Part shown: positions 1 through 5,790 of the stretch, in pieces | How the letters are laid out: the number at the start of each line of letters is the position of its first letter | Position numbering within the stretch: the first letter of the stretch is position 1 | Source of the DNA: Candidatus Latescibacterota bacterium | GTDB lineage: Bacteria; JAAXHH01; JABIQT01 | Direction: 5' to 3' | Assembly (NCBI GenBank): GCA_018667995.1 | Contig: JABIQT010000008.1 | Span: forward strand, 1 to 5,790 | DNA length: 5,790 bases | The notes under the pieces: generated by a model | Told to the model about the DNA's origin: nothing | The model's input: only the letters and a program-made list of their open reading frames with translations | Database searches by the model: none | Made by a program: the position numbers and the translations under genes

Positions 1-701
1 GCAACAACACCACCACCAACAGCATGTGCAGCTTTTGAAGAAAGTTCGGCTACATCCCCATCAATAGGACAGTTCTCTGCTTTTCCGCCAAGTGCGGTAT
101 TCGTGATCCAGTGGCTCGAATACCGGTATATCGCGCAGATAGTCTCTCCGTCAATAACGAATGACCTGATATCTCGCTTATGTTTTTTCTCCACGTATTC
201 CTGAATATAGAAGACGGAATGATGATAAGATCCAAGCGTTTCTTTATGCTCGAGTATGGCCTCTGCTGCGGTCCGATCGTCTGCCCGTGCTATGAGTCTA
301 CCCCAGGAGCCAATCGCCGGCTTGAGAACGACCGGATAGCCCATCTCTTCTATTGCATCGATAGCAGCTTCGGCGGTGAATGCGACGCGGGAATTAAGTG
401 TGGGCACATTGTGTTTCAACAGGGCCATTGTTGTGAGAAATTTGCTGCCACAGACCCTCGCCACTTCGTAGGTATTGACCGTTTTGACACCATGGGCATT
501 GAGGATCTTCAGCGAATAGAGCGCCCGTGAGTGATTTATGTTCCGCTCCAAAACCGCATCGTAATCGAATGCGTTGCGGTTTAGATCAAAGATCAACTTC
601 CTGTCATCTATGCGCTCGAGGCTGAGACCACGTTTCCGGGCAGCCTCAAATAATAGCTTCTGTTCTTTGGTAACGATAGATAAGAGAATGCCCAGTTTCA
701 T
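1..701 (-). CDS. lysX: LysX-type LysW ligase (ATP-grasp), 3' end missing
   Basis: The reading frame opens with ATG at 701 and runs off the left edge without a stop, giving 233 codons starting [15 protein letters not shown]. Family knowledge: LysX uses ATP to join alpha-aminoadipate (ArgX: glutamate) to the C-terminal Glu of the carrier LysW, in the cytoplasm. Seen here: an N-terminal RimK-like domain, YPVVLKP (about residues 122-128), the loop GSWGRLIAR (131-139), IQEYVE (166-171), and the motif IYR....[10 protein letters not shown] (191-206) followed by KAENCP, which matches my memory of Thermus LysX closely. About 45-50 C-terminal residues, including the metal-binding E-x-N motif, lie outside. 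The start overlaps the upstream paralog's stop as ATGA, so translation is probably coupled. Lysine rather than arginine specificity is likely but not proven, because some organisms use one ligase for both. Confidence 0.9.
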
Positions 702-1564
702 GAGGTCACACTCCCATTCTCAATTTCTCCCGAAGCTCGAGAAACCGCATAGTCCATAACACGACCCGATATATCCGTGCCTGTAACGGCCTCGGCCTGT
801 GCCAAGCCAGTCGCCTGTGAAAGATCAATTACGTGCCAGCTGTCTTTTGTCCGGACGAGGTCCACAGCAAGGACCCCTCCTCCGACCGCCTTCACTGCAG
901 TGGTAGCAATTTTGATCAGTTCTTCCGACAGGGGATATCCGTCTACAAGTCCGCCATCCTCTATCGGAGTGAGCCAATGATTGGTCATTACAGCTATGGC
1001 AGCAACTACCTCATCACCTACAACGAACGCTCTCACATCATGCCCGGGTGCCTCCACGTACTTCTGTACGAAGAATATGGAATGATGATAACTACCCAGG
1101 ATTCTCTTATGTTCAAGTATTGTCTGTGCGGTGAATTTGTCCTGTATACGCGATATTAACTGGCCAGACGGACCCTCTACAGGCTTCAGAACCACGGGAT
1201 ACCCGATCTCCTCCATCGCTTCCAATGCGGAGTCAGGAGTAAAAGCAATGCGTACTTCTGGGGTCGACACTCCGTGTTCTCTGAGCGCGACCTCTGCAAG
1301 TAGACGATTGCCCGAAATCTCCGCCACACTATAGGAGCTTACCGTTGGAATGCCCCAATCCTCGGCAATCTTCAAAGCATATACGGCCCGATGATGGTCA
1401 ATACAGCGTTCCAGCAACACGTCGACTTCGATGCTCGGACAACCGAGATCGAAGTGTGTAGCCGTATTATCAATTATTACGACCTCATGGCCTCTGGTTC
1501 GGGCAGCCGCTATCAGGAGTTTCTCATCTGTGCGGATGCGGGACAGCAGGATTCCTATTTTCAT
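698..1564 (-). CDS. Divergent LysX/RimK-like ATP-grasp paralog
   Basis: A complete 288-aa protein, normal LysX length, similar from end to end to the LysX encoded just downstream. Shared stretches include MKxGILLS at the start, YPVVLKP (122-128), LGSYHHS (156-162) and AVGGGV (226-231). Key positions differ from LysX: the R of AIYR is V192, the N of WITN is P200, the SWGR loop is PSGQ (132-135), the hinge IQE is VQK (166-168), and the usual metal-binding E-V-N near the C-terminus reads D247-L-S249. Asp235 (AVDL) is kept. It may ligate a different amino acid to LysW, work slowly, or act as a non-catalytic partner of LysX in a mixed oligomer; these are inferences. An in-frame TGA shortly upstream leaves ATG 1564 as the only start that keeps the conserved N-terminus. 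No clear ribosome-binding site precedes it (ACGGTAAC). The frame is intact, so this is not an obvious pseudogene. Confidence 0.85.
711..715 (-). promoter_or_regulatory. Ribosome-binding site of the downstream lysX
   Basis: The minus strand reads GGGAG, then 9 nt, then ATG at 701, all inside the end of the upstream paralog. Together with the ATGA stop-start overlap (698-701) it indicates coupled translation of the two ligases, and so roughly linked amounts of both proteins. Confidence 0.55.
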
Positions 1565-1599
1565 GTTACCGTACTTTCATCTGCAGAGATTCTGACCAC

Positions 1600-1633
1600 A
1601 AAAAACAAAAATCGGGGAGTCGCCCCCCCGATT
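1600..1633 (-). terminator. Intrinsic terminator between lysW and the ligase genes
   Basis: The minus strand reads AATCGGGG (1626-1633), an 8-nt loop, then CCCCGATT (1610-1617), a perfect 8-bp stem. It runs straight into TTTTGTTTTTT (1600-1610, sharing its first T with the stem), a T tract with one interruption. The arrangement is one-directional: reading the plus strand, no T tract follows the stem. It lies 93 bp after the lysW stop and 35 bp before the paralog start, so it should end or attenuate the lysW transcript. No separate promoter of similar quality was seen between it and 1564. Confidence 0.85.
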
Positions 1634-1680
1634 CCGACAGGATCACGATACCCATCGGTGACATATCATATCGCAAGATT

Positions 1681-1712
1681 ACATGTGCCGGAAGATTTGA
1701 TCCGGCATATGT
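1681..1712 (-). other. Stem-loop in the lysW 3' region
   Basis: An inverted repeat with two 12-nt arms (1681-1692 and 1701-1712) and an 8-nt loop. On the minus-strand RNA the arms are ACAUAUGCCGGA and UCCGGCACAUGU, pairing 11 of 12 positions with one A-C mismatch. On the plus-strand RNA that position would be a G-U wobble. It starts 14 nt after the lysW stop codon and has no T tract. It could stabilise the short lysW mRNA, mark a processing site, form part of an attenuator with the terminator downstream, or be a protein-binding palindrome. A weaker small hairpin (1644-1660) lies between it and the terminator. Confidence 0.6.
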
Positions 1713-1726
1713 GTTACATCGAGAAG

Positions 1727-1891
1727 CTACTCTCCCCAGTCTTCCTCTTCCTCAGGTGCGAGGTTGAGCTCAATTGGGTTTGCGCTCACGACCTCAAGAT
1801 CCGCGCCGCAGTCCTCACACTCAACAATCTCGCCTTCCACAACATCATAACCTAAATCGATACTTGCATCGCATTCCGGACAGTTAGCCAT
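1727..1891 (-). CDS. lysW: LysW amino-group carrier protein
   Basis: A 54-residue acidic protein that matches LysW in length and plan. Family knowledge: the gamma-carboxyl of the C-terminal Glu is ligated by LysX to the amino group of alpha-aminoadipate (or by ArgX to that of glutamate). The carrier then protects the amine and presents the intermediate to the kinase, reductase, aminotransferase and hydrolase of the pathway. Seen here: MANCPECDA with C4 and C7, then C25 and C28 in ECEDCG, forming the four-Cys zinc ribbon, and an acidic tail ending EDWGE, the hallmark C-terminus. ATG 1891 is chosen because GAGGGGGAG lies just upstream and MANCPEC is the usual N-terminus. A GTG at 1912 would only add seven non-conserved residues. 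The gene has its own promoter and is followed by a terminator before the two ligase genes. Confidence 0.96.
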
Positions 1892-1894
1892 GCG

Positions 1895-1903
1895 CTCCCC
1901 CTC
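1895..1903 (-). promoter_or_regulatory. Ribosome-binding site of lysW
   Basis: The minus strand reads GAGGGGGAG CGC ATG. This strong purine-rich Shine-Dalgarno sequence sits inside the longer GTG-initiated frame and decides the start at 1891. It is clearly stronger than the site before the next gene (1564), which fits high carrier expression. Confidence 0.75.
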
Positions 1904-1963
1904 ATTGTTCACGCAACGCCAAAGGCAGACTTGGTGATTGATTTTATAACCAAAGGACGTCGG

Positions 1964-1991
1964 AATATAATCCTGTTGCTAAACCTGTCAA
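1964..1991 (-). promoter_or_regulatory. Sigma70-type promoter of lysW
   Basis: On the minus strand, TTGACA (1986-1991, full consensus) is followed by a 16-bp spacer and TATATT (1964-1969, five of six consensus bases). The predicted transcript start is near 1957, giving a leader of roughly 65 nt before lysW. The -35 box begins 8 bp beyond the stop codon of the lipoprotein gene. Diderms of the Bacteroidota type use other promoter motifs, so a classical -35/-10 pair weakly argues against that phylum. No operator-like palindrome was clear in the leader. Confidence 0.7.
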
Positions 1992-1998
1992 GGGCTTT

Positions 1999-2916
1999 TT
2001 ATTCAAATCTCGATGGTGCTGGAACCCGCCAGATGCCCGCAGGAAGCTCCCGTGTCAATTGATCGATAAGCTCAAGTCTATCGCTGCCCGGTTCACCTAT
2101 CTGACCGGGGTCAGCTGTCGCCGGAGCAATCTGGCCATCTACCATACGTACGGACCATGACTCCGCCCCAATTCCACGATCTATTTTAAGTAAAATGCTC
2201 TCGTCAGATCCGACGGGCCATTGCATACCGCTTATGTCCGACGGACCGAGAAATGCTCTGAGATCGGTAACCAATATTGGCGGCGTTCTCGCAACCAAGT
2301 CCAGTGTGTAAAGGCGCCCTGCGACGTCCACGTACGCTGCGGTAGCGCCGTCGAAAGCGAGAGCGGCGACACGAACTCGAGCACGGGAAAGCAATGTCGG
2401 AAATTGGTCGGCTACCTCGACTGTATCCGGCACATCTACCGTGAAGCCGCCATAAAGGGGACCATCCTCAAGATGGACCAGGGCCTTCCCCGAGACATTC
2501 CTGGTCTGCAACACTCCGTCAAGCAACACCACTGATGGCGCCGCTACCACGAGACGTAATCTGGGGGGGGAAACCCCAGCCGTCTGAACTCCTGGTACTT
2601 GAATCAGTCGAACGGGCTGCTCGTTCGGCCTGAGCCTAAGGAGATAGACTACGCCTTCCTCAAACCGAGGCTCGGCGCCACCAATTCCTGACGAGAGTAT
2701 CGTCCAGGGAGTTGATTGGTTGACGTACAGGAAATGGCGCGCAAAGACAACCGATTCTACCGGGAAGGGGTTGTCCGGCCGTGCGACTTGATGGTATGAA
2801 ACAGAGGCTATATTCCGACTGGCATCAACGATAGAACCTGACCTGGTATCGGGATCTATACCTTCACAGCCCAGTATCGACAGACCAGTGAGTAATGTCG
2901 TAAATAGTCGGTACAT
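1999..2916 (-). CDS. Predicted lipoprotein, beta-propeller-like (second copy)
   Basis: A 305-aa protein beginning MYRLFTTLLTGLSILGC: a short signal peptide with a good lipobox (ILGC, lipid attachment at Cys17). The next residue is Glu. It is paralogous along its whole length to the product of the gene just upstream. Shared segments include G(S/R)IVDAS(R/K)N (27-35), a RHF.YV strand (60-65), EDGP(L/I)Y.G (150-157) and IDRG.G (245-250). The stretches AALAFDGATAAYVD..GRLYTLD (184-206) and ISGMQW...LLKIDRG (228-248) resemble TolB/PD40-type propeller blades, so a small beta-propeller exposed at the outer membrane is inferred. I know no named family for it. The start is supported by the lipobox, but only a weak GAG precedes it. 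A C8 run lies in the SPP codons (117-119). Position after a TonB-dependent receptor suggests a role in its uptake system. Confidence 0.85.
   Translation of the reverse strand: MYRLFTTLLTGLSILGCEGIDPDTRSGSIVDASRNIASVSYHQVARPDNPFPVESVVFARHFLYVNQSTPWTILSSGIGGAEPRFEEGVVYLLRLRPNEQPVRLIQVPGVQTAGVSPPRLRLVVAAPSVVLLDGVLQTRNVSGKALVHLEDGPLYGGFTVDVPDTVEVADQFPTLLSRARVRVAALAFDGATAAYVDVAGRLYTLDLVARTPPILVTDLRAFLGPSDISGMQWPVGSDESILLKIDRGIGAESWSVRMVDGQIAPATADPGQIGEPGSDRLELIDQLTRELPAGIWRVPAPSRFE
2563..2570 (-). repeat. C8 homopolymer tract in second lipoprotein gene
   Basis: Eight consecutive C on the coding (minus) strand span the Ser-Pro-Pro codons 117-119 (TCC CCC CCC). The frame is intact as written. A change of one base would shift the frame after about 40 percent of the protein. 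The run also sits in a short inverted repeat on the plus strand (CTGGGG at 2561-2566, CCCCAG at 2574-2579). Confidence 0.8.
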
Positions 2917-2961
2917 GCGCTCACGGCTGGGCAGTTACGCCTCGCCGTCTCTCCTTGGTGT

Positions 2962-3888
2962 TCAAAGATCGCCGAATCGAGTAGGGTCTGGTACATTCCA
3001 GATATCCGCACCCATATCGGCTGTAATCCTGTCAATGTCAGCTAACCCATCTGCGCCTGGAATTCGAACCGTCTCCGGATCGCTGAATGTCGGTACCAAT
3101 CTAGCTTGAGTCTGTCTTTCCAGACGGCGTACCTCCAAACCAAATCCGCGATCCATCACCAATAAGAGACGACCGCCCAATCTGCTCTCCCACCGCATTC
3201 TTACTACGTTAACAGTCCCCAGAAAGTCTCTCATGTTCAATATCATTTCTGGCTCACGATCCTCGTCTTTGATGTATAGACGGCCCGTATCGTCCGTGTA
3301 GGCAACGGTCACACCGTCTCCGGATAGTGCCGCCGTACTTACCCGCGCGTTCACGAGAAGACGAAGGGGCATGTCGATAGTACGCTCATCGCCCGTAAGA
3401 TCTACACCTACATCGAGGCCACTGTAGATCGGTCCATCTTCCATATACACGATGGCCGTTGTATTACTATTTCCCAAAGGCCCGGGCGCAGCTATGGCCA
3501 GATGCAAACGGGCCGGTGAGAGCCCCCCCAGAGCCACTCCTGGGATACGAGCCAGGCGAGTGACTATCGGATCTGAGGCACCACCTGATCCACTTAACGC
3601 ATACACCCCGGCTTCCTCAAACTTCGACTTCTGTCCACTGGCACCAGTCGACACGATGGACCACCCACTACTCCCTGATACATAGTAAAAGTGGCGAATA
3701 AATATAGGTACGCTCGGAGAACTGCCGCCCGGCCAATACAGGCCCGCGGAAACATTTTTACTGGCATCTACAATTCTTCCGGTGTCGTTCGCTGGCCTGA
3801 TCGCATCACATGAAACTCCCATGGCCGTAAACCAGACCCATAGAGCGCAATAGCTCAACCGCCAAGTGAAGTGCGATTTCGTCACCAC
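2962..3888 (-). CDS. Predicted lipoprotein, beta-propeller-like (first copy)
   Basis: A 308-aa protein from the GTG at 3888. The signal peptide is VVTKSHFTWRLS, then a hydrophobic core (CALWVWFTAM), then a lipobox-like GVSC with the lipid Cys at residue 27, followed by Asp. An ATG at 3936 would place a charged, non-signal extension in front and overlap the receptor gene by 55 bp, so it is rejected. GTG 3888 has GGAG 10 nt upstream (3899-3902). GTG 3885 overlaps the receptor stop as GTGA and is equally possible. The body parallels the second copy: GRIVDASKN, RHFYYVSGSSGW, EDGPIYSG (150-157), AALSGDGVTVAYTD..GRLYIKD and VVRMRW..LLLVMDRGFG, the last two like TolB/PD40 propeller blades. Both copies end in a similar IW.VP.P(S/T)RF tail. 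No named family is recognised. Tight overlap with the receptor gene implies co-translation and joint function. Confidence 0.82.
   Translation of the reverse strand: MVTKSHFTWRLSYCALWVWFTAMGVSCDAIRPANDTGRIVDASKNVSAGLYWPGGSSPSVPIFIRHFYYVSGSSGWSIVSTGASGQKSKFEEAGVYALSGSGGASDPIVTRLARIPGVALGGLSPARLHLAIAAPGPLGNSNTTAIVYMEDGPIYSGLDVGVDLTGDERTIDMPLRLLVNARVSTAALSGDGVTVAYTDDTGRLYIKDEDREPEMILNMRDFLGTVNVVRMRWESRLGGRLLLVMDRGFGLEVRRLERQTQARLVPTFSDPETVRIPGADGLADIDRITADMGADIWNVPDPTRFGDL
3523..3529 (-). repeat. G7 homopolymer tract in first lipoprotein gene
   Basis: Seven consecutive G on the coding strand lie in codons for Leu-Gly-Gly (CTG GGG GGG), a few codons from the position matching the C8 tract of the paralog. 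The frame is intact as written. Confidence 0.7.
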
Positions 3889-5790
3889 TGGATTTTCACT
3901 CCGGTCCAAATGGCGCGGGCAGGTCCATAGACCCATTGGATCTGATTGAGAAGCTTGTTGTCAGGTTGGCCACTTTTCTCGTACAAACGTGGGTCGGCCA
4001 CAACATCAACATTTACGTCGTTCAGTAGATTCCGCACCTCAATAAACAGTGTAGCAATTGGCATACTTTTGGCCCCAAGCACGGGCACATCAATCCTTCC
4101 GTCTATTGTCCGACGCCATGACCCGAATGCGGTAGCGGGCTCTTGGCCGGGGGTAACGACCTGTCCCAAGCCCGCCGTGATAGGACGTTGGTACGGAGTA
4201 CCACTCTGGAGATGACCGATCGCTGAAAGTAGGGTACCATTCGAGAATCGCAACGTACCGTTGACGTTGAACCAATGATGCCTATTCCAAAAGGAGTTGA
4301 GCGTATGATCGAATGTCGTGAAATCTCCAGGAGACAACGACGGACTGGGTCTCAGTGGTCGGTCTGATTGCCGCACCGCTCCTATATCTTTCAAGTAAAG
4401 ATATGACAAACTTGCCGAAAATCTGGTTCGCGAGCGCTTGAGCGGAAGCAGACGACGCACCAATGATACTTCAATGCCTGCCTGTTTCCGGAATCCATGG
4501 TCGACTCGGCCCCAATGTGCGCCATAATTTGCAGCGGCCTGAGGTAGCACCTCCGGGCCCAATACGGGAAAATATCGTTCAGAATCTCGGTAAAAGGCCG
4601 TTACGTCAGCCGTATACTCCCGCCGAGCTATCCCAATACCACCTTCTACCGTGGTGAGGCGCTGCGGGCTGAGATCGGTAACGGACCGGTTGGCGTACAG
4701 GGAGGAAGGAGTATCAACCGTACGATACCGATCTTCTAGTGTCGGTATCCGATTCATTACTCCAAAGGCCATATGCGCGGTCCACCTTCGCGAAGGATAT
4801 GACAAGCTGATCCTTGGGCTCAGTAAATTGGTCGCAGATGCTGTACCTCCCGCACCAAGTAAAACCTGACGAACTGATTCTTCAATGGCGCGATCATCTC
4901 CGAGTGTACGATACACGTCCTGCCAGAGAACGTCTCCAAAGTCAAAGCGATCGTAGCGCACCCCCACATCCATCAACAACGCACCAAAGCGCAGCCTATC
5001 CGTAATGGACAAAGAAAGCTCATGCGGATTTACGGTGATTCCGAATGCATCTGGAACAACCTGGGCATGCCAAGACTGAACCTGGCGGTATCTATGGCGG
5101 CGAAATGCGACTTCACCATCTACCAAATGCACGTCATTAATCTGATAGCTGATGTGGCCGTTCACGAGGAAAGAAAGGTATTCCCGTGAAGCGGAAAACG
5201 CGGGTGAAGGGGTCGCAGGAATCAGACCATCAAGAAAAACAGGAGGATCTGATACAGACAACAAGGCGCTACTTTCTCGCGGGTCGCTTCGCCACTGGTC
5301 GAAGCGCGAGTGTGTCCGAATTCCGTAATTAAGGCCGCGCGATGTGGTACCAGACCATTCTATACCGAAGCCCCCTGACCGACTACGCCATAGATTCAGA
5401 TGTTCAAGAATGTAACGCGCACGGTCCGCATAAATGTGGTTCCCTGGACGTACGTGCCACCCGTTATCCAGTCCGAGGAGACTGAATACCACCTGGTGCG
5501 ATGGACCTAAACGGATATTTGCGTTCAGGAGGCCGTGCAGACGGGTGGTTTGTTGGTTCGGAAAGGGGCCCCAGATCTCATGGTATCGTGCATGGAGCCC
5601 GTAGCCAATACGCTGACCAGCCTGCCGGATTGACTCGATAGACAGATCCATTCGCTGGGAATTTCGAGTGGATCCATTGAGTCCGTAGTTGTAATCGGAG
5701 GCTTGCGATCCGTTCGTACCAGAAAGAAGTGGATCCCAAGATGTATCATCCTTGAGGAAACGGATGATATTCAGTAAGCGAGGATCATCC
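3882..5790 (-). CDS. TonB-dependent outer-membrane receptor, 5' end missing
   Basis: The frame is open from the right edge to TGA at 3882-3884, giving 635 visible residues. Signal peptide, any carboxypeptidase-like domain and the TonB box/plug lie outside the window. The visible part is beta-barrel: alternating polar and aromatic strands with long loops (for example GYGLHARYHEIWG, then a strand about 30 residues later), and the usual end FIEVRNLLND (TonB-receptor C-terminal motif) with a last strand AIWTGVKIQW ending in an aromatic residue, as the BAM machinery expects. The style, with DYNYG before the first visible strands, resembles carboxypeptidase-regulatory-like receptors of Ignavibacteria and Rhodothermota. 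It should import a large ligand powered by TonB-ExbBD. The ligand cannot be told from this sequence. ATG 5651 is internal and not the start. The stop overlaps the next gene's GTG. Confidence 0.9.
   Translation of the reverse strand, partial: DDPRLLNIIRFLKDDTSWDPLLSGTNGSQASDYNYGLNGSTRNSQRMDLSIESIRQAGQRIGYGLHARYHEIWGPFPNQQTTRLHGLLNANIRLGPSHQVVFSLLGLDNGWHVRPGNHIYADRARYILEHLNLWRSRSGGFGIEWSGTTSRGLNYGIRTHSRFDQWRSDPRESSALLSVSDPPVFLDGLIPATPSPAFSASREYLSFLVNGHISYQINDVHLVDGEVAFRRHRYRQVQSWHAQVVPDAFGITVNPHELSLSITDRLRFGALLMDVGVRYDRFDFGDVLWQDVYRTLGDDRAIEESVRQVLLGAGGTASATNLLSPRISLSYPSRRWTAHMAFGVMNRIPTLEDRYRTVDTPSSLYANRSVTDLSPQRLTTVEGGIGIARREYTADVTAFYRDSERYFPVLGPEVLPQAAANYGAHWGRVDHGFRKQAGIEVSLVRRLLPLKRSRTRFSASLSYLYLKDIGAVRQSDRPLRPSPSLSPGDFTTFDHTLNSFWNRHHWFNVNGTLRFSNGTLLSAIGHLQSGTPYQRPITAGLGQVVTPGQEPATAFGSWRRTIDGRIDVPVLGAKSMPIATLFIEVRNLLNDVNVDVVADPRLYEKSGQPDNKLLNQIQWVYGPARAIWTGVKIQW

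Follow-up and report, generated by a model that had tools for sequence, protein, structure and literature searches.

Why should a bacterium keep, directly behind lysW and in front of a canonical lysX, a second full-length lysX copy that lacks residues of the LysX active site? The question is raised by a stretch of 5,790 nucleotides from a Candidatus Latescibacterota bacterium (contig JABIQT010000008.1, positions 1 to 5,790), here called the window, in which this copy had been described by a sequence-only reading. The paralog is referred to below as LysX-A, and the canonical LysX encoded directly after it as LysX-B (Table 1). The relevant genes all lie on the minus strand and follow each other from upstream to downstream as lysW, LysX-A and LysX-B, the identity of lysW being indicated by TIGR01206 (65.2 bits, cut-off 53.2) and by a match to PF21344.

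Table 1. Features of the window considered in the text (codons are those of LysX-A)
Feature	Position	Strand	Description
LysX-A	698..1564	(-)	288-aa LysX paralog, ATG start, without internal stop; probable pseudoenzyme
LysX-B	3..701	(-)	canonical LysX: GSWGR, IYR...HWITN; sequence ends at its residue 233
lysW carrier protein	1727..1891	(-)	54 aa from ATG, zinc-ribbon cysteines, EEEDWGE tail
ATGA overlap, LysX-A stop / LysX-B start	698..701	(-)	4 bases; ATGA or GTGA in 15/15 genomes
Promoter TTGACA-16-TATATT upstream of lysW	1964..1991	(-)	hexamers and spacing identical in 7/7 genomes aligned
Terminator-like hairpin between lysW and LysX-A	1608..1635	(-)	12 pairs, T-rich tail
Codon 87, R for the invariant ATP-grasp lysine (GDK/GNK)	1304..1306	(-)	alignment
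Codons 132-135, P-S-G-Q for S-W-G-R (LysW-tail recognition / ATP loop)	1160..1171	(-)	alignment; role from PMC10433800
Codons 192-200, V.......P for R.......N (substrate Arg; N ~ RimK N213)	965..991	(-)	alignment; contacts from PMC10092738
Codons 247-254, D-L-S-Q-A-T-G-L for E-V-N-x-T-M-E-F	803..826	(-)	metal ligand N249, substrate loop E253-F254

The overlap between the LysX-A stop and the LysX-B start is expected to couple the translation of the two genes, but it is not special to this pair, since the LysX-B and LysY genes of a related genome, G013, also overlap by four bases. The promoter upstream of lysW is conserved as CTTGACA-16-TATATT in all seven genomes of the phylum that were aligned, and the hairpin between lysW and LysX-A may lower the ratio of LysX-A and LysX-B to LysW. 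In G013 a second terminator-like site is found in the gap between the two genes, while a scan of the same gap in three other genomes revealed no such site, and an Rfam search returned no match. Upstream of lysW, two adjacent lipoprotein-like proteins are encoded on the minus strand (1999-2916 and 2962-3936), which share 37% identity and are recognized by neither Pfam nor NCBIfam. In G013, too, a homolog of the first protein (50% over 188 residues) is encoded directly upstream of lysW (L057:11375-12031), and the pair appears to represent an unnamed family tied to the lysW locus.

Against the LysX equivalog model TIGR02144, LysX-A scores 228.5 bits over its full length, below the cut-off of 275.6, and it lies well above the cut-off of the broader RimK family; its pre-ATP-grasp domain is recognized by PF22626 (81.9 bits). 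The predicted structure (pLDDT 86.4, pTM 0.86) is an ATP-grasp fold with Thermus LysX as its best match (3vpd, Z 36.0, rmsd 1.6 over 276 residues), and a control prediction of LysX-B displayed the same architecture with similar loop confidence. In two trees the LysX-A proteins form one clade (100/100) on a long, accelerated stem branch of 1.1-1.4 changes per site, nested in bacterial LysX. A position inside ArgX, which the sequence-only reading had named as evidence against its proposal, was not found, as the clade stands away from Sulfolobus ArgX. The pre-ATP-grasp domain, the fold and the tree position together indicate that LysX-A descends from LysX. Topology tests rejected neither a single clade of LysX-A and LysX-B (p-AU 0.14 and 0.28) nor a grouping of LysX-A with RimK (p-AU 0.187), and a single duplication within the phylum giving rise to both proteins is accordingly not rejected.

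In order to place the changes in LysX-A among the residues conserved in the family, 15 LysX-A and 15 LysX-B sequences were aligned with 30 other LysX and two archaeal LysX/ArgX proteins, and the 25 positions that are invariant in all canonical LysX/ArgX sequences covering them (44-47 sequences) were taken as reference. Ten of these (K87, S132, W133, R135, R192, N200, E238, N249, E253 and F254) are absent from LysX-A in each of the 15 genomes, with no loss of the same ten in LysX-B or in LysX from other phyla, a pattern that chance does not account for, given that ten of 25 invariant residues are missing in all 15 proteins. The lysine at position 87, present in 47/47 canonical sequences, is an arginine in every LysX-A; likewise S132 is replaced by P, R192 by V and F254 by L throughout, W133 is always absent, R135 is Q or H, and N200 is P, T or S. 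At N249 a glycine is found in 14 proteins and a serine in the window, and E253 is replaced by G in 14 and by D in one. The GSWGR motif, present in LysX-B and in 30/30 other LysX, reads GPSGQ in the window and is lost in all 15. In addition, K127 is R in 12 of the 15 (otherwise K), and six proteins carry an acidic residue, D or E, instead of the loop glycine G134. Retained are R53, P123, P128, G131, Q167, D176, R178, H196, W197, G204 and D235, as well as E247 in 14/15.

All the substitutions that had been read from the window alone (PSGQ for SWGR, V for R192, P for N200, D-x-S for E247-x-N249) are therefore present in it, and the E-x-N pattern assumed for canonical LysX is borne out by the full-length LysX-B of 14 related genomes, in which this segment reads NEVNYTMEFRNS. 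The loss of E-x-N itself holds in part: N249 is missing throughout, but D247 is peculiar to the window sequence, the other LysX-A proteins having E. Likewise, the alignment of LysX-A with LysX-B is free of gaps over the substrate region, as had been noted, but a one-residue indel occurs outside it, near residue 172. K87R and the losses of E238 and of the E253-F254 pair had been overlooked.

What these losses would mean for catalysis can be judged from characterized relatives. The GSWGR motif is reported to recognize the EDWGE tail of LysW, and the LysX substrate is recognized by a five-residue motif plus an arginine (PMC10433800). In LysX-A both the substrate arginine, R192, and the E-F-[RK]-x-x specificity motif are missing, and the metal-binding D...E-x-N arrangement is incomplete, with D235 kept and N249 lost in 15/15. 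Among the RimK residues, ADP is contacted by K141, S212 and N213, and the glutamate chain by N262 and R189 (PMC10092738); from the RimK-type rows in our alignment we infer that N213 and N262 correspond to LysX-A positions 200 and 249. Since K87, R192, N200 and N249 are also retained in nearly all the RimK-type rows aligned, these four residues are superfamily-wide rather than LysX-specific. With no grip on the LysW tail and with most ATP, metal and substrate ligands gone, LysX-A is unlikely to load LysW, and from its residues it is probably dead for the ancestral reaction as well as for LysW loading.

LysX-A is nevertheless maintained. The sample of the phylum comprises 16 genomes of one order, 15 of which bear LysW (four genera in two families, with 12 of the 15 in one genus), and in all 15 lysW, LysX-A and LysX-B follow each other in that order; the sixteenth (83% complete) has neither lysW nor the LysX-A/LysX-B pair. 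Because twelve genomes belong to one genus, this conservation amounts to about four independent lineages. From 66 close pairs, a median dN/dS of 0.108 was obtained for LysX-A versus 0.100 for LysX-B, so that LysX-A is under purifying selection about as strong as that acting on LysX-B. Moreover, 24 sites are fixed to different residues in the two proteins (e.g. D56, H58, E82, R87, V192 and L254), with ten each in the N-terminal and middle thirds and the remaining four in the C-terminal third, which would be a sign of new constraint on LysX-A rather than of none. The open frame seen in the window is free of internal stops in 15/15 genomes, the decay in related genomes that would have spoken against the original proposal is not seen, and the tree that had been proposed as a check gives a separate clade with the same substitutions always beside lysW and a canonical lysX. 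The presence of LysX-A in all 15 genomes, the lack of stops, a dN/dS of about 0.11 and the invariable absence of residues for catalysis and LysW recognition thus support the original proposal of a protein that selection maintains without the standard LysX reaction. Group-wide loss of catalytic residues (15/15) and purifying selection are both expected of a pseudoenzyme, which LysX-A probably is, and no earlier description of a LysX pseudoenzyme was found in the accessible literature.

Outside the phylum, a thin sample of 384 genomes and, by exact peptide patterns, 11 further contigs yielded canonical LysX only. Two independent LysX pairs with the catalytic motifs kept in both copies were observed, at L040:6001-7766 and, in genome G070, at L106:2879-5275; their second copies carry ArgX-like specificity residues (PEFHGA, PEFKLL), and they look like ordinary LysX/ArgX pairs.

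That LysX-A always accompanies a working LysX, and that the two genes overlap, suggests that it acts as a partner. We hypothesize, with little more than even confidence, that LysX-A is a catalytically inactive LysX paralog that acts together with LysX-B as a non-catalytic subunit, a partnership suggested by gene order, overlap and analogy. Made side by side, the two proteins would form a mixed oligomer in which LysX-B would perform the chemistry, loading the amino acid onto LysW, and LysX-A may activate, stabilize or feedback-regulate this entry step. RimK-type enzymes are commonly tetrameric (PMC10092738), and there are precedents for such a division of labor. In trypanosomes, deoxyhypusine synthase pairs with a dead paralog in a 2:2 heterotetramer whose activity exceeds that of the homotetramer 3000-fold (PMC3663545); the AdoMetDC prozyme (PMC5201418) and HisZ, which serves HisG (PMC9734150), are likewise catalytically dead paralogs acting as control subunits. 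By the same analogy, and more tentatively, LysX-A might be an obligate subunit of the prozyme type, itself non-catalytic, by which LysX-B is switched on or off. The metabolism of the amino-group carrier protein LysW would then have its first known case of control by a dead paralog, and one found phylum-wide.

The survival of several catalytic positions (R178, D235, W197, H196, a K or R at position 127, and E247 in 14/15) counts against a dead LysX-A, and two of the altered loops, EGPxxQ and xxGL, partly resemble EGTQG and SPGL of active RimK, so that their changes are not plain degeneration. These features could be explained if LysX-A were still an ATP-grasp ligase with a substrate or acceptor other than LysW, which dropped GSWGR, acquired RimK-like loops and uses R178, D235, E247 and K/R127. 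In accordance with this idea, the RimK model NF007764 gives 70.6 bits for LysX-A versus 35.8 for the LysX-B of the window (which is incomplete at 233 residues), the match to 7qyr reaches 79 bits versus 58.5 for a full-length LysX-B, and several alternative residues are fixed in 15/15. Furthermore, several of the losses recur in a GAK-type ATP-grasp protein, in which K87 is replaced by R, N200 is missing and E-x-S is found, and may for this reason be compatible with some activity. Nevertheless, the four residues that are near-universal in RimK- and LysX-type rows are all lost in every LysX-A, the loop glycine is acidic in six of them, and the gene is flanked by lysW and LysX-B instead of by the genes of another substrate, which leaves a ligase for another acceptor unlikely.

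Slightly less likely still is that LysX-A regulates the pathway as a stand-alone sensor or scaffold, binding an amino acid, a nucleotide, the globular domain of LysW, or LysZ/LysY, and not as a subunit of LysX-B. The retained fold and N-terminal domain and the 24 sites at which it differs from LysX-B would suit this role, but a mixed oligomer is the more economical proposal given the oligomeric ancestry of the protein and the translational overlap with LysX-B.

That LysX-A ligates another amino acid to LysW, for example as the ArgX of a LysX/ArgX pair, is improbable. Tandem LysX genes with intact motifs do occur, in a Chloroflexi MAG (L040) and in G070, but their second copies keep GSWGR, R192, N200 and E-x-N, none of which is found in LysX-A, and the motif reported to recognize the LysW tail (PMC10433800) is among the losses. 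A new LysW-linked substrate, one of the three options originally offered for LysX-A, is now the weakest of them, because GSWGR has disappeared from LysX-A in 15/15 genomes whose LysW proteins all still end in EDWGE; the other two, a regulatory pseudoenzyme and a subunit of a mixed oligomer, both stay candidates. A glutamate-specific ArgX in particular was rejected on residues, there being no working ArgX site, and on the tree. Finally, a decaying gene copy, to which the accelerated stem branch might be attributed, has a negligible probability in view of the absence of stops and a dN/dS of about 0.11, in a gene that is intact in 15/15 genomes, with fixed positions, and conserved at the depth of two families.

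The non-catalytic partner of LysX-B that we favor would act at the entrance of a LysW pathway. In G013 the operon continues after LysX-B with argC/lysY, hisS, lysZ, lysJ and lysK, and the stretch available from G002 likewise includes hisS and lysZ; by their scores, LysZ of G013 is a [LysW]-aminoadipate kinase and LysK a [LysW]-lysine hydrolase. The histidyl-tRNA synthetase gene, hisS, is thus part of the lysW operon, preceded by lysY and followed by lysZ (L057, L058). The genomes of the phylum gave no match to homocitrate synthase above cut-off, with 2-isopropylmalate synthase as the best hits, and LysX-bearing genomes outside the phylum include some with and some without this enzyme. Arginine appears to be served by the acetyl route, since argJ is present in 13/16 genomes of the phylum and a separate argC-argB-argD set in the genome of the window. 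The coexistence of a LysW operon with a classical arginine set, with no detectable homocitrate synthase, is seen in G002 (L058) and G013 (L057). Above cut-off, lysA is found in only three genomes, none of the largest genus, and dapF is patchy. An ornithine carbamoyltransferase-like protein of the window's genome (L111:5312-6244) is of the NF011379 type; in most genomes of the phylum the corresponding protein falls below the common OTC cut-off, and G001 and G011 have a standard OTC.

The accessible literature yielded no account of control at the first step of the LysW pathway. If the partner role is correct, a conserved dead LysX overlapping a live one would provide, for one phylum, a testable answer on control of entry into the pathway, and ATP-grasp ligases would join the enzymes for which a dead paralog has, as a rule, turned into a control subunit. 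In any case, gene callers will label LysX-A as LysX and count an enzyme.

Among known systems, LysX-A is closest to the LysX/ArgX proteins (TtLysX 1UC8/3VPD, TkLysX 5K2M and StArgX 3VPB), with which it shares the fold (Z 32-36), the length, the pre-ATP-grasp and RimK-type domains, an operon with lysW, and R178, D235 and W197. In contrast to these LysW-alpha-aminoadipate/glutamate ligases, it has neither GSWGR nor K87, R192, N200, N249 and E253-F254. RimK, the ribosomal S6 glutamate ligase, resembles it in the ATP-grasp fold (Z ~29) and in the EGxxx and xGL loops, but keeps the lysine, the arginine, N213 and N262, which have no equivalents in LysX-A, and LysX-A is located in a lysW operon. The GAK-system ATP-grasp family (TIGR04356), represented by one member in L025, shares with LysX-A the R for K87, the missing N200 and E-x-S for E-x-N, but it is another family (LysX-A scores 62.7 bits against a cut-off of 300) in another gene context. 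This member (L025:1495-2382) itself scores 285 bits against the same cut-off and carries E-x-S, DR and no equivalent of N200. The folds of HisZ-HisG(S) and of the trypanosomatid prozymes (AdoMetDC, deoxyhypusine synthase) are unrelated to that of LysX-A; as a working analogy, these systems offer the arrangement proposed for LysX-A, in which an active enzyme at a point of control retains a catalytically dead paralog as its companion.
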